Part shown: piece after piece, positions 15,976 through 61,793 of the stretch
Position numbering within the stretch: position 1 is the stretch's first letter
How the letters are laid out: every line of letters starts with the position of its first letter
NCBI RefSeq assembly: GCF_023721715.1
Contig: NZ_JAMDLG010000001.1
Span: 3,511,784-3,575,783 of the forward strand
DNA length: 64,000 nt
Reading direction: 5' to 3'
DNA from: Parasegetibacter sp. NRK P23
Lineage (GTDB): Bacteria > Bacteroidota > Bacteroidia > Chitinophagales > Chitinophagaceae
Translations under genes and position numbers: made by a program
Notes under the pieces: model-generated
Seen by the model: the letters and a program-made list of their open reading frames with translations, nothing else
Told to the model about the DNA's origin: nothing
Database searches by the model: none

Positions 15976-16461
15976 ATGGCTCAGTTGAAAAAGGCGCTGG
16001 TAGCGGTATTTGTAATTTGTATCCTTAGTCCGGCAATCTCTTTTGGTCAGAACGCGAAGTACAAGTGTATGGTGCAGATGACGAACTACATGGGTGAAGG
16101 CGCCTATATCGTGGTGTCACTCATCAATCCAAAAGGTGGGTACGATAAAACATTGTATGTGATGGGCTCCGATAAGAAGTGGTATCCTGATCTTAAAGAA
16201 TGGCACAAGGCGATGGGCAAGAAACCCGAAAACCTGAGCGCTGTTACGGGCGCTTCCGTTGCCGGTGGCGACAGAAGCGTGGTGAACCTCGAACTGGAGA
16301 AAGCAAAACTCAACGCGGGATATAAACTCCGTTTTGAAACGGCGGTAGAGGACAAACAGTACCACCTGAAAGACGTGGAGATTCCCCTTACCACCGAAGG
16401 ACTGGCTGCTAAAACGGAAGGTACGGGCTATATCCGCTACGTTCGTTTCAGCGCACTTTAA
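15976..16461 (+). CDS. DUF2271 periplasmic protein, candidate flavinylated carrier
   Basis: 161 residues with a signal peptide (KKALVAVFVICILSPAISFGQ). The body is DUF2271-like: 'AYIVVSLINPKGGYDKTLYV', 'KWYPDLKEWHKAMGK' and a C-terminal 'GYIRYVRF'. DUF2271 genes commonly neighbour PepSY and ApbE genes. Residues 91-94, in AVTGASVAGGD, read T-G-A-S, close to the S/T-G-A-S/T core that ApbE enzymes modify with FMN, but the usual Thr two residues later is Ala here. I regard it as a candidate FMN acceptor, unproven. Tightly coupled to genes on both sides (4 and 17 bases). Confidence 0.82.
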   Translation: MAQLKKALVAVFVICILSPAISFGQNAKYKCMVQMTNYMGEGAYIVVSLINPKGGYDKTLYVMGSDKKWYPDLKEWHKAMGKKPENLSAVTGASVAGGDRSVVNLELEKAKLNAGYKLRFETAVEDKQYHLKDVEIPLTTEGLAAKTEGTGYIRYVRFSAL

Positions 16462-16478
16462 CCGAACGATCTTTTATA

Positions 16479-18665
16479 ATGATCATATCTGTATGGAGAT
16501 ACAGCCACCTCGCACTGGCCGTATCTTCTTTTTTATTGCTCCTCCTCGCCTCCGTTACAGGAATTGTACTGGCTTTCGATCCTTTGACCGATAAGGCCGC
16601 CACACACCGTGTGCAGGACCCTTCAACTGTTCGTTTATCCGAAGCCGTTCCCCTGCTGAAAGAAAAGTATGGGGATGTGCATGAACTCCGGATGGAGAAA
16701 GGTGCACTCGTGCTGCATTGGACCGATGAAGCCGGTAACGGGGAAAAGTCGTACGTGGATGCCCGTAATGGTAAAGAACTGGGTGCGGTGGAAGAACAAT
16801 CTTCCTTTTTCCAATGGGTGACCGCTTTGCACCGTTCCCTTTTTTTACATGAAACGGGACGGTTATTGATGGGCATTACCTGCTTTTTGCTAATGCTCAT
16901 TGTCATCTCAGGGATCATCCTGGTGGTCCAGCGGCAGAAAGGTATCCTTCGTTTTTTCGCAAGGGTAGGGCATGAATCAGGGGCGCAATACTTTCACGTG
17001 GTATTTGGCCGGATAGCGCTTTTCCCGATACTGCTCATCGCTTTTACCGGCGCGTATCTTTCAGCGACGGGATTTGGTTGGATCAGGGCGGAAACACCTT
17101 CGGTGGAAGTGGATTTCGCTGCCATTAAAGCTGAACCTGAATTGGATTGGAATAGTTTCACAGTTTTTAAAAATCATTCACTCGCCGACCTGCAAACCCT
17201 GGAGTTCCCGTTCTCGGAGGATGTGGAAGATTATTTCACGGTAAAGTTCCATGACAGCACCATCGCCATCAACCAGGTGACTGGCGAATTGCTGGCAAAG
17301 GCGGAACACAGTTCAGCGGCGAAACTCAACGCCTGGAGCCTCGATTGGCATACGGGCAGATCGGGCGCCGTATGGGCCATCATCCTGGCCATCTCCTGCG
17401 GGTATATTTTGTTCTTTATCGGCTCGGGTTTCCTGATCACTTTCCGGAGAAGGGCCAATAAAAAGAAGAATAAGTTCAGGGCCGACGAATGCACCACCGT
17501 TATACTGGTGGGTTCCGAGAACGGCAGCACATTGCGTTGCGCTGTTTCGGTTTCCAAACAATTGTCGGCGAAAGGGGAGAAGGTATGGCTCACAGATATG
17601 AACAATTATAAGGTGTTCCCGGCCATGCAGCAACTGATCGTTTTCACGAGTACGCATGGCCTGGGCGATCCACCTTCCAATGCTGGAAAGTTCCTTTCAC
17701 GGCTTCCAAAAATGCCACAACCGCAACACGTAAATTTTACTGTGCTGGCATTTGGTTCGCGCAGTTACGATGATTTTTGCCGCTTTGGTCTTGAAGTAGA
17801 TGCCGCGTTAAGAAAACAGGAATGGGCACAACCCATAATGGACGTTCATACTGTAAATGACCGTTCCCCTGAAGACTACGCCACCTGGTGCAAACTGTAT
17901 ACAGCGGTTTCCGGGCAATTCATAGAACCGGATGCAAAACTGTTTCCCGCGCACCACCTTCACCTGCCGTCATTTACCGTTGTACAAAAAAGCGACGCGA
18001 CGGAACCCGACTATGCTTTCGAAATTACCTTACTGCCCAAAAAGAAAATGAAGGTCCGCTCCGGCGACCTGCTGGCCATCTATCCCGCCAATGACCACCG
18101 GGAAAGGTTGTATTCGATCGGTATGTTGGGAGATGCCATTCACCTTAGTCTCAAACTGCATCCGGAAGGACTGGGTTCAACATTCCTGCACCAACTCCAG
18201 GTGGAGGATACATTGAAGGCGCGTATCGTGGAGAACCGGCATTTCCATTTTCCAGGCGGTAAAAATCCTGTTATCATGATCTCGAACGGAACGGGTATCG
18301 CCCCCTTCCTGGGCATGATCGGGGAAAATAAAAAGGGAAGAATAGTGCATCTTTATACCGGGTTCAGGTACAGATATTCGCTTGACCGTTACCGTGAATT
18401 ATTGTCTGGTTACGAAGCGGGAGGCCGCTTGTCGGGCCTGCATGAAGCCTATTCGAGAGAAGCATCGCGCATGTATGTGACCGATATACTCGCAAGGGAC
18501 ACGGAGGAAATTACGGAACTGCTTCGTGCAGGTGCGGTGGTTATGTTATGCGGTTCCCTGGCCATGCAGAAGGATGTGTGCGCGCTGCTTAGTAATATAT
18601 GCCGTGAAAAAGGGTTAGGCGACATTTTACTGGAGAAAGGAAGGCTGCTGACCGATTGTTATTGA
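16479..18665 (+). CDS. PepSY membrane protein fused to flavodoxin and FNR-type reductase domains
   Basis: 728 residues. The N-terminal half is a PepSY-associated membrane module with helices near 9-31, 128-150, 173-195 and 297-321; His10, His118, His124, His173 and His291 lie at membrane edges and could bind heme. A basic stretch (RRRANKKKNK, about 323) leads to a cytoplasmic flavodoxin domain (339-485; VGSENGSTLRCA, 'STHGLGDPPSNAGKF'). Then comes a ferredoxin-NADP reductase unit with the FAD motif RLYSIG (about 543) and the NADP motif NGTGIAPFLG (about 606). It resembles a sulfite-reductase flavoprotein joined to a membrane anchor. It likely moves electrons from NAD(P)H through FAD/FMN across the membrane to periplasmic acceptors. 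Convergent with apbE, 8 bases apart. Confidence 0.9.
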   Translation: MIISVWRYSHLALAVSSFLLLLLASVTGIVLAFDPLTDKAATHRVQDPSTVRLSEAVPLLKEKYGDVHELRMEKGALVLHWTDEAGNGEKSYVDARNGKELGAVEEQSSFFQWVTALHRSLFLHETGRLLMGITCFLLMLIVISGIILVVQRQKGILRFFARVGHESGAQYFHVVFGRIALFPILLIAFTGAYLSATGFGWIRAETPSVEVDFAAIKAEPELDWNSFTVFKNHSLADLQTLEFPFSEDVEDYFTVKFHDSTIAINQVTGELLAKAEHSSAAKLNAWSLDWHTGRSGAVWAIILAISCGYILFFIGSGFLITFRRRANKKKNKFRADECTTVILVGSENGSTLRCAVSVSKQLSAKGEKVWLTDMNNYKVFPAMQQLIVFTSTHGLGDPPSNAGKFLSRLPKMPQPQHVNFTVLAFGSRSYDDFCRFGLEVDAALRKQEWAQPIMDVHTVNDRSPEDYATWCKLYTAVSGQFIEPDAKLFPAHHLHLPSFTVVQKSDATEPDYAFEITLLPKKKMKVRSGDLLAIYPANDHRERLYSIGMLGDAIHLSLKLHPEGLGSTFLHQLQVEDTLKARIVENRHFHFPGGKNPVIMISNGTGIAPFLGMIGENKKGRIVHLYTGFRYRYSLDRYRELLSGYEAGGRLSGLHEAYSREASRMYVTDILARDTEEITELLRAGAVVMLCGSLAMQKDVCALLSNICREKGLGDILLEKGRLLTDCY

Positions 18666-18673
18666 GCCTGCTT

Positions 18674-19675
18674 TTAATCGTTATTCTTTACCCGATATGT
18701 TTCCAGCGGAATAGTTTCTGAATGAATGAATTTGCCTTTATCGGTGGCCATAATGTAGGTATAGCCCGGAAATTTTTTCAGCAGTTTTTTACCTTTCTTA
18801 CTGCCCAACACCATAATGGAAGTGCTGAAACCATTCGCCAGTTCCGCACTGGGTCCGAATACGGTTACACTGGATAACCCTGTGGCCGGGTAGCCTGTCG
18901 CCGGGTTGATGATGTGCGAATACCGTTTTCCATTGATCTCCGCGAACTTTTCATAACTGCCGGAAGTAACGGCCGCCCCGGATTTTTCGAGTGGAATGAT
19001 GGCGTACAGGTCACCGCGGTGGAACGGATGCGCAAGCCCGATCATCCAGGGTTTGCCATCGGGTTTTCTGCCCCAGGTATTCATATCGCCCGATCCGTTC
19101 ACGATACCCGCTTTCACCCCGCGTGCCAGCATCATTTCACGGCACCTGTCTGCCGCGTAACCTTCTCCCAGTGCGCCAAAGCCGATCTTCATTCCTTTTA
19201 GCTTCAGGAAGATGGTGGACTGCACGGTGTCAATTTCAATGTTCCGGTAGCTCACTTTGGCCTTCGCTTTTTTCACCGCTGCGCGGGAAGGCATTTCCAT
19301 TTCGGAGCCATCGAATTTCCAGATTTTTTCCATGGCCGCGAAACTGATATCGAAGGCACCGTTCGTTAGTTTAGATAGTTCCAGCGCCCGTTGTGTGAGG
19401 GCGATCACTTCTTGGTCCACTTTCACCGGCGCGATGCCCGCCTGTTGGTTCACGTGTGAAACCTGCGTGGTATCTATCCAGTCCGAGATCAGGTATTCTA
19501 TCCTTTTTATTTCCGCGATAGCGTCATCAATATGTTTTTCCGCTTTCAGGGAATCTTCCGCTACAATCGTAATGTCGAATCTTGCACCCATCAGCTTTAC
19601 GGTGCGGCTGCGCAGGGTTTGTGCTTCGGAAATATGGCAGAAGCAAACACCCAGGATCAAAATGAAATATCTCAT
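18674..19675 (-). CDS. apbE: ApbE family FAD:protein FMN transferase, exported (copy 1)
   Basis: 333 residues with a signal peptide (MRYFILILGVCFCHISEAQ). ApbE motifs: MGARFDITI near 29, 'SDWIDTTQVSHVNQQAG', 'TNGAFDISF', 'GFGALGEGYAADR', 'GIVNGSGDMNTWG' and 'YSHIINPATGYPA' with the Mg-site residues. It cleaves FAD and attaches FMN by a phosphoester bond to Thr/Ser of exported proteins. Convergent with the PepSY flavoreductase operon and presumably its maturation enzyme. On its own strand it follows the MocR gene by 26 bases, so it may be partly read from that promoter. Confidence 0.95.
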   Translation of the reverse strand: MRYFILILGVCFCHISEAQTLRSRTVKLMGARFDITIVAEDSLKAEKHIDDAIAEIKRIEYLISDWIDTTQVSHVNQQAGIAPVKVDQEVIALTQRALELSKLTNGAFDISFAAMEKIWKFDGSEMEMPSRAAVKKAKAKVSYRNIEIDTVQSTIFLKLKGMKIGFGALGEGYAADRCREMMLARGVKAGIVNGSGDMNTWGRKPDGKPWMIGLAHPFHRGDLYAIIPLEKSGAAVTSGSYEKFAEINGKRYSHIINPATGYPATGLSSVTVFGPSAELANGFSTSIMVLGSKKGKKLLKKFPGYTYIMATDKGKFIHSETIPLETYRVKNND

Positions 19676-56914: not shown

Positions 56915-58099
56915 CTACTTGAACTTCAAATGCAGGGAAACAATATTCGCGTTCATATCAATGCTTTTATTATAGTGCCCATAACGCAGTTCCAGAGACT
57001 GAACATGTTGCATACCCAATACGCCTTTGGGTGGCGCCAACCGGATACCTCCTCCGAAGAACGCGCTGTTAAACGTGGAAAGATCATAGTTGCTGGTGTA
57101 AAACTGGTCCGCCAAACTATGCGCTTGGTATGGCGCGAAGTACCGGGTGCCGGTCTGGTTGTAATACCGGTAGAATGGTGTTACAGACACAAAGGGTGTT
57201 AATTTCACCGTGGTCTCCAGTTGTGCGGTATGCGATGCAATGCCCCAGTCGTCTTTGTAATAGCGGTACCATCCTTTTAATATGAGCGCGTCTCCGGCGA
57301 AATAACTGGCACGAATGCCTACGGGTATTTTAAACCTGGAATCGGGCAGGTGCTCTATGTTCACGGATTGGTCCTTGAAGTAAACCCTGTTGAAGGGCAG
57401 GCTGAGGAAGCCCTGCTGGTAAACGAGTTCAGTTTCCAGCATCACTTGCAGGTTGCGGTTGATGATCTGTGACCAGGAGACCGTGCCGCTGAATGTTTTT
57501 CTGCCATTTGCCGGTCGTTTGGTGATGCTGCCCCGGAGTTCAATCGGGTAGATCAGGTTCACCTGGTCAATATAAGTTTGTAGTTTGGCGTACAGTTCCC
57601 CGTTCCTGTTCTTTGTTTTCCTGCTGAAATTGACATTTGCCCCGGTGGAGATGTAATCGTATTCCGCGGAAGTATAAATACCGCCACCGATGGTGGTACC
57701 TTTCTCGGTGTTCTCTCTCGTCCAGTTGATGGAAGGGTAGATGCGGGTATCTGAATAAGAGGCGGAGCTCACGGTAGAGGGATCGATTTTATCAGAAGAA
57801 GCGGAAGTGTAATGATCTATCCCGATATCAATGGTGAACGTGTTCTTCCTGTTTTTCCAGTCGTATTTACTTAGTTTAAGGTCGAAGGAGTTGGAGATGT
57901 CGGTAAGCTTCTGGGAGCCGATACCGCCGGTAACGGCCGCATTGTTGCCGTTCTGGCTGTAGTAGCTGGAAACGATGTTCGCTTCTTCAAACTTCAGTTT
58001 ACGGCGCTTGTAGGTGGAATCGCCACCGGAAACTGATTGGGAGAATGCGGCGAGGATGCTGAGGTAGAGGCCGAGTGTGAGCAGACTGATCTTTTTCAT
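56915..58099 (-). CDS. DUF3570 predicted outer-membrane beta-barrel protein
   Basis: 394 residues with signal peptide (MKKISLLTLGLYLSILAAFSQ). DUF3570 features: N-terminal 'KRRKLKFEEANIVSSYYSQNGNNAAVTGG' (about 30-58, in part), then many amphipathic beta strands such as 'TFTIDIGIDHYTSAS' and 'GIRASYFAGDALILKGWYRYY', ending in VSLHLKFK. This is consistent with a barrel in the outer membrane. Last gene of the thioredoxin/ApbE/DUF4266 operon, 18 bases after DUF4266. DUF3570 and DUF4266 occur together next to ApbE in many genomes; a role in moving electrons or metals through the outer membrane is inference. Confidence 0.88.
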   Translation of the reverse strand: MKKISLLTLGLYLSILAAFSQSVSGGDSTYKRRKLKFEEANIVSSYYSQNGNNAAVTGGIGSQKLTDISNSFDLKLSKYDWKNRKNTFTIDIGIDHYTSASSDKIDPSTVSSASYSDTRIYPSINWTRENTEKGTTIGGGIYTSAEYDYISTGANVNFSRKTKNRNGELYAKLQTYIDQVNLIYPIELRGSITKRPANGRKTFSGTVSWSQIINRNLQVMLETELVYQQGFLSLPFNRVYFKDQSVNIEHLPDSRFKIPVGIRASYFAGDALILKGWYRYYKDDWGIASHTAQLETTVKLTPFVSVTPFYRYYNQTGTRYFAPYQAHSLADQFYTSNYDLSTFNSAFFGGGIRLAPPKGVLGMQHVQSLELRYGHYNKSIDMNANIVSLHLKFK

Positions 58100-58117
58100 G
58101 CAGGGGAGGTTTAGGTG

Positions 58118-58342
58118 TTAGTTGCAACCGCAGCCGCCGCCGGTTTTGCCGCCGTTGGCGCCGGAAGAACCTTCGCGGTATGACTGGAAGCTGAGTTCTG
58201 TTTTTTCGATTTTACGTGCGGAAAGGCTCATTTCCGCATCGTTCAGTTTGTTCATCTGGTAAGCTTTTACCGTGGTGCAGGAGGCGCCGAACAGAAGGGT
58301 GGCACAACCCAGTACGGTGCGTAATAATGTTTGCTGCTTCAT
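58118..58342 (-). CDS. DUF4266 small Cys-tailed lipoprotein
   Basis: 74 residues from ATG 58342, which overlaps the apbE stop by 4 bases (ATGA). Lipoprotein signal with lipobox FGASC (Cys22), the DUF4266 body 'VKAYQMNKLNDAEMSLSARK' and a C-terminal Gly/Cys tail GGGCGCN. The two tail cysteines could bind a metal or heme-like group or form a disulfide, which would fit the thioredoxin in the same operon. The gene is small but well supported by motif, overlap and order. Confidence 0.88.
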   Translation of the reverse strand: MKQQTLLRTVLGCATLLFGASCTTVKAYQMNKLNDAEMSLSARKIEKTELSFQSYREGSSGANGGKTGGGCGCN

Positions 58343-59292
58343 ATGATGTGTATGTTTTTTGAGGTATGTATCTTGTTGTTGTCGTCCACAATAATGCAGG
58401 CCATTCCTTTCAACTGGTTCACCAGGTACAGCCCTGCGCTGATGCCCATAATCGTAACCGGGGTGGCCATGGCATCGGCCATTTCCGCGTTCGGACAAAT
58501 GATGGTGACGCTTTTTATACCGGTCACGGGCATGCCTGTTTTGGGGTCGATCGTGTGGGAGTATTTCTTTCCCCCGATCACCACGAATTTTTCATAGTTC
58601 CCTGAAGTGGCCACGGAATTGTTGGAGATGTCCAGTGACGAAAACACCTGTTCCGCGGCGTTGGGGTTGGCGATGCCGATGGTCCAGGGGCTGCCGTCGG
58701 CCTGGTTTCCCCAGGTGGTAAGGTCTCCGGAGGCATTTACCACACCACCTTTCGCACCTTTTTCTATCAGCACCAGTTTGGCCATTTCAGCGGCGTATCC
58801 TTTCCCGATGCCGCCAAAGCCGATACGCATGCCGCGTTCTTTGAGGAAAACGGTATGGTTGATTTCGTCCACCACCACATTCCGGTAATTGATCAGGGCC
58901 ACTTTTTTCCGCGCTTCTGCCGGGTCGGGAAGGGTAGTCATCTGCTGGTCGAAGTTCCAGAAGCGCTTATCTATTGATCCATAGCTAAGGTCGAAGGCGC
59001 CCTGGGTGAGTACCGAAATGTTTGCTGCTCTTTTTACGAGGTGGAGAAACTCGCTGCTTACTTTTACCGGGGCGATGCCGGCCTGTTCGTTTACGGCGTA
59101 AGTTTCACTTGTATCACTGAAAGTGGTGAGCATGCGTTCTATTCTACTGATCTCCTCCACACCCGCTGCGATCCATTCGGCCCCTACAGATTCATCCGGG
59201 GCGATCACCGTTAATTCGAAGCGGTTGCCCATCAGCTTATGGACTTCGCTCACTTTAACGGAAGCAGGGGCCAGTGTGCTATTTTGCTGCAT
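58339..59292 (-). CDS. apbE: ApbE family FMN transferase, no visible signal peptide (copy 2)
   Basis: 317 residues from the ATG at 59292 (MQQNSTLAPASVKVSEVHK). ApbE motifs: HKLMGNRFELTV, 'TQGAFDLSYGSI', 'GIGKGYAAEMAK', 'GVVNASGDLTTWG', 'YSHTIDPKTGMPVTG' and 'MADAMATPVTIMG'. The start lies 14 bases inside the upstream thioredoxin gene. Unlike the copy at 18674 it has no hydrophobic N-terminal segment, and upstream codons do not supply one. It may act in the cytoplasm or be exported differently, or the true start may be misjudged. 4-base overlap with DUF4266 downstream. Confidence 0.93.
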   Translation of the reverse strand: MQQNSTLAPASVKVSEVHKLMGNRFELTVIAPDESVGAEWIAAGVEEISRIERMLTTFSDTSETYAVNEQAGIAPVKVSSEFLHLVKRAANISVLTQGAFDLSYGSIDKRFWNFDQQMTTLPDPAEARKKVALINYRNVVVDEINHTVFLKERGMRIGFGGIGKGYAAEMAKLVLIEKGAKGGVVNASGDLTTWGNQADGSPWTIGIANPNAAEQVFSSLDISNNSVATSGNYEKFVVIGGKKYSHTIDPKTGMPVTGIKSVTIICPNAEMADAMATPVTIMGISAGLYLVNQLKGMACIIVDDNNKIHTSKNIHII

Positions 59293-59719
59293 GGCACGCG
59301 GCTTTGAGCTGATCGGTAAATGCTTCCGGCGTTGTATTCGGAACGCCTTCCCAGGTATGCAGCACTCTTCCTTCTTCATTCAACAACAGGGTTAGTGGAA
59401 AGGCGCCCTTCTGGTTGTATCGTTCGGCCAGTGCATCATTCTTTTTTTGTTGCGCGTTGGGAAGCCGGTTTTTCTTGAGCCTTGGAAAATCGGCATTCAC
59501 CAATACCAGTTCATCTGATGCCAGGGCGGTAAATGAAGGTGAGGTGAAGAAGGTGCTGTGTAAACGGATGCATGGACCACACCAGTCGGAACCCGAGAAA
59601 TTAAGTAAAATCAGTTTGTGTTCTTCTTTTGCCTGGCGTGCGGCGGCCTCGAAATCGGTCTGCCATTTTGGTTCACCGGTCGCGGAAAAAAGGAAGGCAA
59701 ACAGGAGTATTATTTTCAT
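59279..59719 (-). CDS. Exported thioredoxin-family protein
   Basis: 146 residues with a short signal peptide (MKIILLFAFLFSATGEP). Thioredoxin fold of the Thioredoxin_7 type: 'AKEEHKLILLNFSGSDWCGPC' (in part) with active site WCGPC (about 47), 'LVNADFPRLKKNRLP', the cis-Pro region GAFPLTLLLNEEG. First gene of the apbE/DUF4266/DUF3570 operon; its start follows an operator-like repeat by 33 bases. It may reduce the cysteines of the DUF4266 tail; inference from context. Confidence 0.92.
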   Translation of the reverse strand: MKIILLFAFLFSATGEPKWQTDFEAAARQAKEEHKLILLNFSGSDWCGPCIRLHSTFFTSPSFTALASDELVLVNADFPRLKKNRLPNAQQKKNDALAERYNQKGAFPLTLLLNEEGRVLHTWEGVPNTTPEAFTDQLKAACHAAK

Positions 59720-59751
59720 ACAAGGATTTTAGCTTGCATGCAAATTCTCCT

Positions 59752-59775
59752 TCAATTCTGAATACTTTCTGAATT
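59752..59775 (-). promoter_or_regulatory. Candidate response-regulator binding site upstream of the thioredoxin operon
   Basis: TTCAATTCTGAAT-N5-CTGAAT on the plus strand (ACTTT as N5), that is a CTGAAT direct repeat with an 11-bp period, as expected for a dimer of an OmpR-type regulator. The same 13 + 6 bases and spacing occur at 61770-61793 before the response regulator gene. It ends 33 bases upstream of the thioredoxin ATG. Confidence 0.7.
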
Positions 59776-59802: not shown

Positions 59803-61074
59803 TTAATATGCGGGGAAACTGATCCTGAAATGGTGCCATCCTTCTTCAAAAGAATAGGATAGCGAAAAGCCGCTCGACGAGGCGATTTTTTTAACGATTT
59901 CAAGGCCCAGCCCAATACTTGCCGGGTCATCACTTTCTTTTCTGAAGCGCCGGAACATCAGCGTTTCATTCAGCGCATCCTGCTTGCCTGTATTGGACAC
60001 TTCCAGGAAAGCCGCATTGGAACGAATCTTTATTTTTCCGCCGTTAATATTGTGGCGGATGGCGTTGGTGAGCAGGTTGGCGATCATGATTTCCAGCAGG
60101 GTCCTGTTGCAGGAAAGCGTTACCGGTTCATGTTGTTCTACTGAAACATCAATTTGTTTCCGTTCAATCGGGTCTTTGTACAGGGCCAGTTGTTCGGTAA
60201 CTTCTTTGTTGAGTGCAATGGTTTCTCTGGCAAAGAACTGGTTGTTGTCCATTCTGGCGAGGAGCAGCAGCGAACGGGTAAGCCTGGAAAGCCTTTGATT
60301 GGCCGCGGCAATGGAAGAGATCAGGGCCGATTGTTCCTCCGTAATGGGCTGCGTTTGCATGAGCAGTTCCAGTTTCGACTGGGAAATCGCCAGCGGGGTT
60401 TGCATTTCATGGGAAGCGTTTTCCGCAAACTCCCGCTGTGCGATAAAAGCGTTCCTGCTTCTTTCCATGAGTTGATCAAGCGCCTGGTTGAGGTGCCTGA
60501 ACTCTTCCACATTTGAAACTTCCAACTTCGGTTTTTCCTGCGCTTCCACCTGGTACGCGGCCACCTGCTGCACGGTCCGCAAAAAGGGACGCCATATGTT
60601 GCCCGCCAGTCTGTGGTTCACCAACTGTAGTGCCGCGAACAGCAACAGGACCAGTACCACTTCCATCACGAGTACCGCTTCAATAAGTCCTTCGGTATCT
60701 ACCAGAGAAGTGCGGAGCGTAAGCTGGTAAAACCGGCCCGCCTCTTCAAAAGTGGTTTCCAATACGCGGTGCGGAACGTTTTCACTGGTGGCGGTGTCCG
60801 GGATGATGATGGTATAGATGGTATCGGAAGATCGTTTTTGGGAGGAAGGAGAGAAGCTCACGTTATGGTCGAGGAAACGAAACTGGGTTTCGGTGCCCTC
60901 CCGGATGGATTTCTTCAGTTCTGGAAGCATTTGTGCACGGGCGGAACGGATGTCTTCATCAATATCTTCCTGCACAATCATTTTCAGCACAAAATAAAAA
61001 ACCGGTAACGCGATGAGTAACGTAACCAGGGTGGAAACCAGGTATTGCCTTCCTGTTTTTTGCAGTAATTTCAT
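59803..61074 (-). CDS. Sensor histidine kinase of the flavin-locus two-component system
   Basis: 423 residues. Membrane helices about 12-33 and 132-153 flank a sensory loop of about 100 residues. H-box FAENASHEMQTPLAISQSKL (His about 218), N-box NLLTNAIRHN, and G-boxes 'SIGLGLEIVKKIASSSG'. It should sense a periplasmic signal and phosphorylate the regulator encoded just upstream; their genes overlap by 4 bases. Its sensory domain has no recognised motif. 83 bases separate it from the thioredoxin operon. Confidence 0.94.
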   Translation of the reverse strand: MKLLQKTGRQYLVSTLVTLLIALPVFYFVLKMIVQEDIDEDIRSARAQMLPELKKSIREGTETQFRFLDHNVSFSPSSQKRSSDTIYTIIIPDTATSENVPHRVLETTFEEAGRFYQLTLRTSLVDTEGLIEAVLVMEVVLVLLLFAALQLVNHRLAGNIWRPFLRTVQQVAAYQVEAQEKPKLEVSNVEEFRHLNQALDQLMERSRNAFIAQREFAENASHEMQTPLAISQSKLELLMQTQPITEEQSALISSIAAANQRLSRLTRSLLLLARMDNNQFFARETIALNKEVTEQLALYKDPIERKQIDVSVEQHEPVTLSCNRTLLEIMIANLLTNAIRHNINGGKIKIRSNAAFLEVSNTGKQDALNETLMFRRFRKESDDPASIGLGLEIVKKIASSSGFSLSYSFEEGWHHFRISFPAY

Positions 61075-61745
61075 GCGGATAGCTTGTAGCCCATGCCATA
61101 CACGGCCCTGATGTAGTCCGCGCAGCCGGCTTCCTGCAATTTACGTTTCAGGTTTTTCATGTGCGCGTAAATAAAGTCGAAGCTGTCAAAAAAAGCTGCG
61201 CTATCGCCTGCAAGGTTTTCAGCGATCGCGTTCTTGGATACCACGCGGTTCCTGTTGGCGGCCAGGTACAGCAACAGGTCATATTCCTTCCTGGTGAGTT
61301 CCACGGGGTGGTCGTTTACAAAAACCGTTTTGGCGATCAGGTCTATTGTCAGTTCGTTGATGGTGATGGTATTGCTGCCATTATACCGGCGTCTTCTGAT
61401 CACCGCTGCGGTACGGGCGTACAGTTCAGAAAGGTGGAAGGGTTTGGCGAGGTAGTCGTCGGCGCCGAGGTTCAGTCCGTACACCCGGTCTTCAATGGCG
61501 TCTTTCGCCGAAATGATGATAACGCCATCCATTTTATGGCTGGCTTTCATTTCTTTCAGGATATCCAGGCCGTTTCCATCGGGAAGGGTAATATCCAACA
61601 ACACACAATCATAATCGAAGGATTCCATCATTGCCATTCCATGCCGGAAATTGTCCGCCACTTCGCACACCAGGTTCTCCCTTTCCAGGTAGGTCCGCAT
61701 GGCGCTGGCAAGTTCTTTTTCGTCTTCCACAATGAGTACTTTCAT
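61071..61745 (-). CDS. OmpR-family response regulator of the flavin-locus two-component system
   Basis: 224 residues. Receiver: VLIVEDEKELA, phospho-Asp in CVLLDITLPDGNG (Asp51 or so), IISAKD, and DDYLAKPF (Lys). Winged-helix DNA-binding domain from about 125 with 'ELTRKEYDLLLYLAANRNRVVS', 'DFIYAHMKNLKRKL' and 'YIRAVYGMGYKL'. Translationally coupled to the kinase (ATGA overlap). The 24-bp site upstream of its own start equals the one before the thioredoxin operon, so it most likely controls both. Confidence 0.94.
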   Translation of the reverse strand: MKVLIVEDEKELASAMRTYLERENLVCEVADNFRHGMAMMESFDYDCVLLDITLPDGNGLDILKEMKASHKMDGVIIISAKDAIEDRVYGLNLGADDYLAKPFHLSELYARTAAVIRRRRYNGSNTITINELTIDLIAKTVFVNDHPVELTRKEYDLLLYLAANRNRVVSKNAIAENLAGDSAAFFDSFDFIYAHMKNLKRKLQEAGCADYIRAVYGMGYKLSA

Positions 61746-61769: not shown

Positions 61770-61793
61770 TTCAATTCTGAATGAAAACTGAAT
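61770..61793 (-). promoter_or_regulatory. Candidate autoregulatory binding site of the response regulator
   Basis: TTCAATTCTGAAT-N5-CTGAAT (N5 = GAAAA), 25 bases upstream of the response regulator ATG. 19 of 19 defined positions match the site at 59752-59775; only the five spacer bases differ. Confidence 0.7.

Follow-up and report, generated by a model that had tools for sequence, protein, structure and literature searches.

How does a bacterium place flavins on a protein of its outer membrane? This question is raised by four genes in a 64,000-nucleotide stretch of the Parasegetibacter sp. NRK P23 genome (hereafter the window), which encode a secreted thioredoxin-like protein (Trx), the flavin mononucleotide (FMN) transferase ApbE, the small lipoprotein DUF4266, and DUF3570, a predicted outer-membrane beta-barrel. 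They lie in a head-to-tail run on the minus strand, from 59719 to 56915, downstream of genes for a response regulator and a histidine kinase. The gene set itself is already known. Most worth attention is the possibility that an outer-membrane protein is loaded in the cytosol: the window ApbE carries no signal peptide, so FMN probably joins DUF3570 inside the cell, ahead of export. Here, we first place the operon among its relatives and then follow the flavin from the enzyme to the predicted barrel.

A known gene set in a conserved operon

The first-pass annotation of the window described four overlapping or nearly touching genes, and these are indeed present: the Trx gene shares 14 nt with ApbE, ApbE shares 4 nt with DUF4266, 18 nt separate DUF4266 from DUF3570, and all four products score above their Pfam cut-offs (Table 1). 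To place the operon, we combined 80 fetched neighborhoods, 80 named loci from a genome scan (the best 80 of 553 relative-encoding stretches, among at least 593 pattern-matching stretches), and the window, which gave 158 loci unique by DUF3570 sequence. These loci were selected for holding DUF3570, and part of the stretches end at contig ends. Loci L041–L099 and L123–L202 were counted as Bacteroidia, which is an assumption for records titled “Bacteroidetes bacterium” or “Bacteroidota bacterium.” A further family (f17) was identified as green sulfur bacteria because the FMO bacteriochlorophyll protein is encoded in 16 of the 16 genomes tested.

All four families share one same-strand run in 128 of the 158 loci, so the doubt raised at first pass, that the genes might not be conserved together elsewhere, does not hold. 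Taken one by one, ApbE joins the DUF3570 run in 146 loci, DUF4266 in 145, and Trx in 143. This grouping exceeds chance and marks a real, widely conserved system. Bacteroidia loci with all four genes nearly always have the order Trx–ApbE–DUF4266–DUF3570; ApbE precedes Trx in L056 and L198, and in the green sulfur bacteria it follows DUF3570 in all 12 ApbE-holding stretches (of 16), often with DUF3570 in tandem. Several of the green sulfur stretches also repeat Trx and DUF4266, and genomes of this group (e.g., G288 and G354) have up to nine DUF3570 profile matches, some of which are two pieces of one gene. DUF3570 is present in 36 of 98 same-family genomes and in 86 of 296 genomes of the phylum sample. 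The source genome encodes one DUF3570, one DUF4266, two ApbEs, and one DsbD.

The gene set is not new, because the same four genes, with and without DsbD, were described by Méheust et al. (eLife 2021, PMC8238504). In the paper library searched, DUF3570 and DUF4266 both lead to this paper alone. Its authors count 285 flavinylation clusters linked to DsbD, which typically include ApbE, DUF3570, Thioredoxin_7, and DUF4266, and 316 four-family clusters without DsbD. The same four families are adjacent here, and a C-terminal CXC in DUF4266, here within GGGCGCN, is common to both. As in the 316 clusters, DsbD is unlinked: the sole DsbD_TM match of the genome is on contig C23, while the operon is on contig C1. 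In Chlorobium luteolum, the cognate ApbE flavinylates DUF3570 at two [S/T]GA[S/T] motifs, and flavinylation is abolished only if both motif serines are changed (PMC8238504). At first pass the DUFs were described as having no assigned biochemical role, which is out of date for DUF3570, and the proviso that no flavinylated target might be linked to the genes is partly answered, for C. luteolum but not for the motif-divergent branch studied here. The main text of PMC11334425 does not name DUF3570.

The window operon differs from the published cluster in its leaderless ApbE, in having TSAS and SSAS where the two [S/T]GA[S/T] motifs of DUF3570 would be, and in a linked kinase/regulator pair with a shared operator. 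Term searches of the main text of PMC8238504 gave no Rieske protein and no regulatory two-component system. A leaderless ApbE beside DUF3570 is not mentioned in those sections and passages of that paper that the analysis covered, as distinct from its figures and supplements. Likewise, searches around leaderless or cytosolic flavinylation and flavinylated barrels listed no paper whose title or abstract recognizably pairs a leaderless ApbE with an exported target, a scope that leaves aside most subscription papers and the figures of PMC8238504 in which secretion is marked.

An ApbE without a signal peptide

We scored N-terminal leaders by hydrophobicity, with a threshold of 1.6. In a first scoring, 95% of 169 Trx, 98% of 171 DUF3570, and 96% of 158 DUF4266 sequences passed as exported; the share was 11% of 151 linked ApbEs and 3% of 31 response regulators. 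The selection rule of Méheust et al., a signal peptide in at least one target gene (PMC8238504), applies to the window operon through DUF3570, which scores 2.08; the window ApbE scores 0.14. A corrected scoring, which omits three duplicates, two fragments, and one ApbE cut by a contig end (L138), found no leader in 116 of 130 linked Bacteroidia ApbEs, 12 of 12 from green sulfur bacteria, and 0 of 3 from the remaining families; here the ApbE of L052 counts as leaderless and that of L076 as leadered. As a control, we searched 30 genomes that bear the operon for above-cut-off ApbEs encoded elsewhere than in it; of the 25 obtained plus the second ApbE of the window (ApbE2), 23 of 26 scored as exported. 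Among the three sub-threshold controls, L248 and L258 resemble leaders without an early charge, and L265 is leaderless.

The missing leader is mostly not a start-codon error, because the distance from the upstream in-frame stop to the conserved MGN is at most 25 codons in 99 of 128 leaderless ApbEs. In the window ApbE, the frame has 49 codons before the MGN, and no hydrophobic leader follows from any start. In a tree of 100 ApbE sequences (leaderless Bacteroidia subsampled to 46, with labels from the earlier scoring), 45 of the 46 leaderless Bacteroidia sequences fall in one 46-row clade (100/97) together with one leaderless unlinked ApbE, and L061 falls outside it. The green sulfur bacteria form a separate clade (100/100), and the 13 leadered linked Bacteroidia ApbEs group with ApbE2 of the window and six other unlinked ApbEs (93/92).

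The window ApbE keeps the predicted catalytic Ser, His, and Asp: S230, H246, and D273 align with those of FmnB (chain positions 237, 253, and 281 of 7esa/7f39; an offset of 20 makes these the Ser257, His273, and Asp301 of PMC12052999). Going by its N-terminus, the enzyme probably stays in the cytosol, and FMN is probably attached to DUF3570 before export. A leaderless ApbE beside DUF3570 is among what we add to the known gene set, and loading inside the cell before export would be unusual. Known cytosolic ApbEs have cytosolic targets. In Klebsiella, a cytosolic ApbE, likewise without a signal peptide, acts on soluble fumarate reductase (PMC12052999); its target remains in the cytosol, whereas the proposed target here is a signal-peptide-bearing outer-membrane barrel.

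Predicted flavin sites in DUF3570

The consensus for flavinylation is D-x-x-[S/T]-G-A-[S/T] (PMC12052999). This full motif occurs in 21 of 21 unique DUF3570 sequences from green sulfur bacteria versus none of 142 from Bacteroidia. We placed site 1 by alignment with the D-x-x-[ST]-G-A-S of the green sulfur bacteria; the 142 aligned Bacteroidia sequences read TSAS (109), SSAS (24), TAAS (6), or ASAS (3), with the acceptor Ser101 kept in all 142; Asp95, which precedes the motif by three residues, is kept in 131. Site 2 is more varied: SSAS in 105, SGAS in 12, GASK/R/N in 12 (the same motif with a one-column shift), TSAS in 5, SSPS or STPS in 4, TGAS in 1, and no motif in 3. Those last three (L048, L065, and L070, with TAAS at site 1) argue against an essential site 2, as do the four with SSPS or STPS. 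The window DUF3570 keeps both acceptor serines and has the consensus glycine replaced. As flavinylation sites in Bacteroidia, TSAS and SSAS are plausible but unproven. We also considered STGAN (residues 151–155) as a flavin site and rejected it: S151 and G153 are conserved, A154 and N155 vary, and the acceptor would be an Asn.

Motif type follows ApbE type, as expected of an enzyme adapted to its substrate. Beside an exported ApbE, site 2 is [ST]GAS in 11 DUF3570s, SPS in 3, and [ST]SAS in 0; beside a leaderless ApbE, it is [ST]SAS in 105, [ST]GAS in 13, SPS in 1, and absent in 2 (seven further DUF3570s are in stretches without a scorable ApbE). This pairing is little independent evidence, because the tree needs few changes to produce it, and Fisher tests, some of them on earlier counts, ignore shared descent and are descriptive only. 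The window repeats the contrast, with the exported ApbE2 beside a DUF2271 protein with TGAS versus the leaderless ApbE beside DUF3570 with TSAS and SSAS. One genome (G347) has both operon types, an exported ApbE with SSGAS and a leaderless ApbE with SSAS (L095 and L096), which lend themselves to direct comparison.

Predicted barrel and dithiol-tailed lipoprotein

An AlphaFold2 model of DUF3570 (71 sequences) reached a mean predicted local distance difference test (pLDDT) of 91.1 and a predicted TM-score of 0.84. It has 16 strands, counted on DSSP, and combines a closed antiparallel sheet of even strand number with a signal peptide, as in outer-membrane barrels; the high-confidence model thus supports the barrel predicted at first pass. 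The 50 VIA-align matches listed (Z 15.8–21.3) are outer-membrane barrels by title except for one, titled as an artificial zinc metalloprotein, and the 50 Foldseek matches listed give a general barrel likeness (TM-score to query 0.35–0.48) and no particular barrel family. No MtrB-like chain is among the matches listed by either search, which excludes nothing. Known outer-membrane barrels have their N- and C-termini in the periplasm. Because we take the termini of DUF3570 to be periplasmic as well, the model predicts both flavin sites on the outer face, in one loop (mature residues 78–94, low confidence), on the side that also carries most of the long loops.

The tiny lipoprotein with its GGGCGCN tail, noted at first pass, is real, and the tail is almost invariant in relatives (111 of 115 Bacteroidia and 14 of 14 green sulfur DUF4266 sequences). 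The length of the lipoprotein is also nearly fixed: a lipobox is matched in 115 unique Bacteroidia copies (and not in two others), of which 114 have a mature part of 53 residues, and the 14 green sulfur copies have 53 (5 copies) or 56 (9 copies). To ask whether the tail sits inside the DUF3570 barrel, we modeled a DUF4266–DUF3570 read-through fusion (27 rows), which had a mean pLDDT of 72.2, with residues 40–90 below 50.

Regulation of the operon

The first-pass annotation placed the operon under a dedicated two-component system, and this reading is strengthened in the source genome because a putative operator occurs there exactly twice. The 83-bp gap 5′ of Trx and the region 5′ of the regulator both carry ATTCAG-N5-ATTCAGAATTGAA. 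With this pattern, derived from those two sites, and up to three mismatches, the window holds just two sites (0.04 expected), and the 4.83-Mb genome holds the two exact sites plus three with three mismatches, versus one for a reversed control pattern. The 11-bp period of the repeat fits an OmpR-family dimer. A looser form, TTCA-N7-TTCA[GA], was sought in 13 loci. The window, L078, L083, L189, L191, L192, and L202 carry it 5′ of the regulator and again 5′ of the redox operon, L196 and L198 carry it only before the regulator, and L190, L199, L097, and L201 do not carry it (L097 and L201 are a single contig); off-target matches number three on the operon strand and eight on the opposite strand. 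The operator pairs are found in Sphingobacteriaceae, with equivalents in Pedobacter. The conservation of the shared direct repeat supports its prediction as the operator of the kinase/regulator pair.

The two-component system is not a general part of the gene set, with a kinase in the same run in just 17 of 158 loci. In six of these 17 (family f5), response regulator and kinase lie downstream of DUF3570 and match those of the window weakly (kinase 75–93 bits). We also considered whether the pair could be the PorXY regulatory system of type IX secretion. The window kinase is the sole gene above the NF052314 (“PorY family”) cut-off in its genome, and the Pedobacter kinases beside the redox operon in L189, L191, and L202 pass it too. 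The architecture of PorX differs from that of an OmpR-type regulator. Because the adjacent regulator consists of Response_reg and Trans_reg_C and is not PorX-like, we did not file the pair as PorXY. The NCBIfam label may therefore mislead annotation of type IX secretion regulation.

Neighboring genes and other loci

The neighbors of the operon point to metal-linked envelope electron transfer fed by thiols and, in some species, perhaps by quinol. Genes in the same run, named by Pfam on representatives, include VIT1 (34 of 158 loci), Rieske (17), cytochrome b561 (11), Haem_bd (11), CusB-like HlyD_D23 (21), and CusA-like ACR_tran (13), where “Cus-like” is our own label; every neighbor family is missing from most loci. 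The published survey found VIT1 in 25 clusters (PMC8238504). Three loci (L078, L083, and L192) have the order response regulator–histidine kinase–b561–VIT1–Rieske–Trx–ApbE–DUF4266–DUF3570. A 130-aa family, whose representative has no Pfam match, shares the run at 24 of the 158 loci (L057:5362-5751 and 23 others); it often lies directly 5′ of Trx, and the copy inspected is rich in His. Two further families within the phylum have, between DUF3570 and ApbE, a gene for a NusG domain II protein with C[GR]HKTC (L100:6659-7387 and L104:7216-7902), which may be another component of the system. Another locus (L102:5263-7533) has a match to the hydrazine synthase alpha middle domain followed by DUF4266 and DUF3570, with no ApbE in the fetched stretch.

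The window also holds a second flavinylation system (15976-19675), with a DUF2271 protein carrying TGAS, a PepSY_TM–flavodoxin–oxidoreductase fusion, and the ApbE scored as exported. It corresponds to the PepSY–DUF2271–ApbE system (Méheust et al. 2021, PMC8238504), which resembles the DUF3570 operon in pairing ApbE with a substrate that has no FMN-binding domain on an envelope electron route, and differs from it in the exported ApbE, the TGAS of the substrate, and an inner-membrane donor made of PepSY, flavodoxin, and reductase.

Table 1. Features of the redox operon and its regulatory genes in the window
Feature	Position	Strand	Basis
Trx, secreted thioredoxin-like protein (Thioredoxin_7), WCGPC	59279..59719	-	PF13899, 48.8 bits; leader score 2.98
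ApbE FMN transferase, no signal peptide, predicted cytosolic	58339..59292	-	PF02424, 260.4 bits; leader score 0.12-0.14
DUF4266 lipoprotein, 74 aa, mature 53 from lipobox Cys	58118..58342	-	PF14086, 63.3 bits; leader and lipobox in sequence
GGGCGCN dithiol tail, DUF4266 C-terminus	58121..58141	-	Sequence; tail kept in relatives
DUF3570, predicted 16-stranded outer-membrane beta-barrel, signal peptide	56915..58099	-	PF12094, 104 bits; AlphaFold2; leader score 2.08
Predicted FMN site 1, D-H-Y-T-S-A-S, residues 98-101 (TSAS), acceptor S101	57797..57808	-	Alignment
Predicted FMN site 2, SSAS, residues 111-114, acceptor S114	57758..57769	-	Alignment
Sensor histidine kinase (NCBIfam “PorY family”)	59803..61074	-	NF052314, 440.8 bits (cut-off 350)
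OmpR-type response regulator	61071..61745	-	Response_reg + Trans_reg_C
Predicted operator ATTCAG-N5-ATTCAGAATTGAA upstream of Trx	59751..59774	-	Shared repeat
Predicted operator ATTCAG-N5-ATTCAGAATTGAA upstream of response regulator	61770..61793	-	Shared repeat

A model and its alternatives

We propose that the operon encodes a signal-controlled envelope electron-transfer module, with cytosolic FMN loading, a thiol relay, and flavins at the surface; taken as a whole, we consider the case for and against it evenly balanced. The leaderless ApbE would put FMN on two serines of DUF3570 while its precursor is still in the cytosol, the site of flavin adenine dinucleotide (FAD) synthesis. Sec would then export the precursor, which would enter the outer membrane as a barrel of 16 strands whose two flavin sites share a loop predicted to face outward. 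The secreted Trx may be re-reduced by the single DsbD of the genome and would pass electrons to the C-terminal Cys-Gly-Cys tail of DUF4266, whose dithiol arm of fixed length would hand them to the FMNs. The flavins could then reduce an acceptor at the surface; the redox and metal genes that neighbor the operon in relatives make a metal, for example Fe(III) or Cu(II), the likeliest candidate. The kinase/regulator pair would activate its own genes and the operon through the shared 11-bp-period direct repeat.

Porin–cytochrome conduits such as MtrCAB carry electrons from the periplasm to the surface through an outer-membrane barrel. The window system would likewise move electrons through such a barrel; it differs in that the carriers there are hemes and here would be FMN and dithiols, with the contact between arm and flavin only proposed. 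In its most specific form, the model describes a heme-free counterpart of these conduits that needs no FAD export: a Sec-exported, surface-displayed barrel with two FMNs loaded in the cytosol, fed by a dithiol-tailed lipoprotein. We offer this form tentatively and consider it rather doubtful.

Several observations weigh against the model. Flavinylation is known at [S/T]GA[S/T] (PMC8238504), from which TSAS and SSAS differ, and changing the Gly to Ala about halves it (PMC12052999). One ApbE recounted in that review was non-functional if retained in the cytosol. The leader score is a home-made rule and not SignalP, and it misses the leader of the window DUF4266, because that frame is open far upstream. 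The ApbE that failed in the cytosol is presumably that of Salmonella. In 14 of the 130 Bacteroidia loci, ApbE does carry a leader. The fusion model left the DUF4266 tail unplaced, which speaks neither for nor against contact between tail and flavin and lends it no support. VIT1, Rieske, and b561 are absent beside the operon in the window, and both the direction of electron flow and the acceptor are guesses.

The electrons could run the other way, with the flavins oxidizing the thiols of DUF4266 and Trx and passing electrons to O2 or another oxidant, so that the system would make disulfides, as the Erv/Ero oxidases do with their FAD, CxxC, and shuttle Cys. A flexible CGC tail near a flavin resembles the shuttle cysteines of Erv-type oxidases, and Erv2 itself has a CGC. 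The best solved relative of Trx, 2ju5, is named Thioredoxin Disulfide Isomerase, but the best NCBIfam match of Trx is the disulfide reductase DsbH (72.7 bits, below the cut-off of 190), and quinol-side genes (b561 and Rieske) adjoin the operon in some relatives. Méheust et al. allow a reversed electron flow in principle for flavinylation systems but propose DsbD as the electron donor (PMC8238504). Altogether, we consider a disulfide-making role unlikely.

A comparably low probability attaches to the view that DUF3570 is no longer flavinylated in this branch, in which case TSAS and SSAS would be structural remnants and the leaderless ApbE would have a cytosolic target. The absence of the full motif from all Bacteroidia sequences, set against its presence in all of those from green sulfur bacteria, speaks for this view, and Klebsiella provides the precedent of a cytosolic ApbE with a cytosolic target (PMC12052999). 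Yet ApbE keeps its place in the DUF3570 run at 146 of the 158 loci, the two acceptor serines hardly vary, and the motif tracks ApbE type, for the little that this adds. A last alternative is that ApbE, although leaderless, is carried into the periplasm by ride-along export or by a frameshift fusion to Trx, as the 14-nt overlap of the two genes might permit, and flavinylates there as is usual. This is very unlikely, given that ApbE is leaderless also where it lies ahead of Trx (L056 and L198) and, in the 12 ApbE-holding green sulfur stretches, where it lies 3′ of DUF3570.

We therefore retain the module with cytosolic FMN loading as the preferred reading. The literature and our results agree with the first-pass idea of a redox set of the envelope whose outer-membrane part bears a flavin, except that ApbE, having no signal peptide, is probably outside the envelope. 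This branch is a variant of the published system whose ApbE is probably cytosolic and whose motif is altered; the source genome also has a dedicated regulator for it.

Implications

If the flavin is attached before export, outer-membrane flavoproteins could be delivered without FAD crossing the inner membrane. The picture of extracytosolic flavinylation would then need an exception, in most of the sampled Bacteroidia DUF3570 loci and in the green sulfur bacteria. The regulator–operator pair offers a handle for finding the signal, and the system makes testable the delivery of electrons to bacterial surfaces without multiheme cytochromes.

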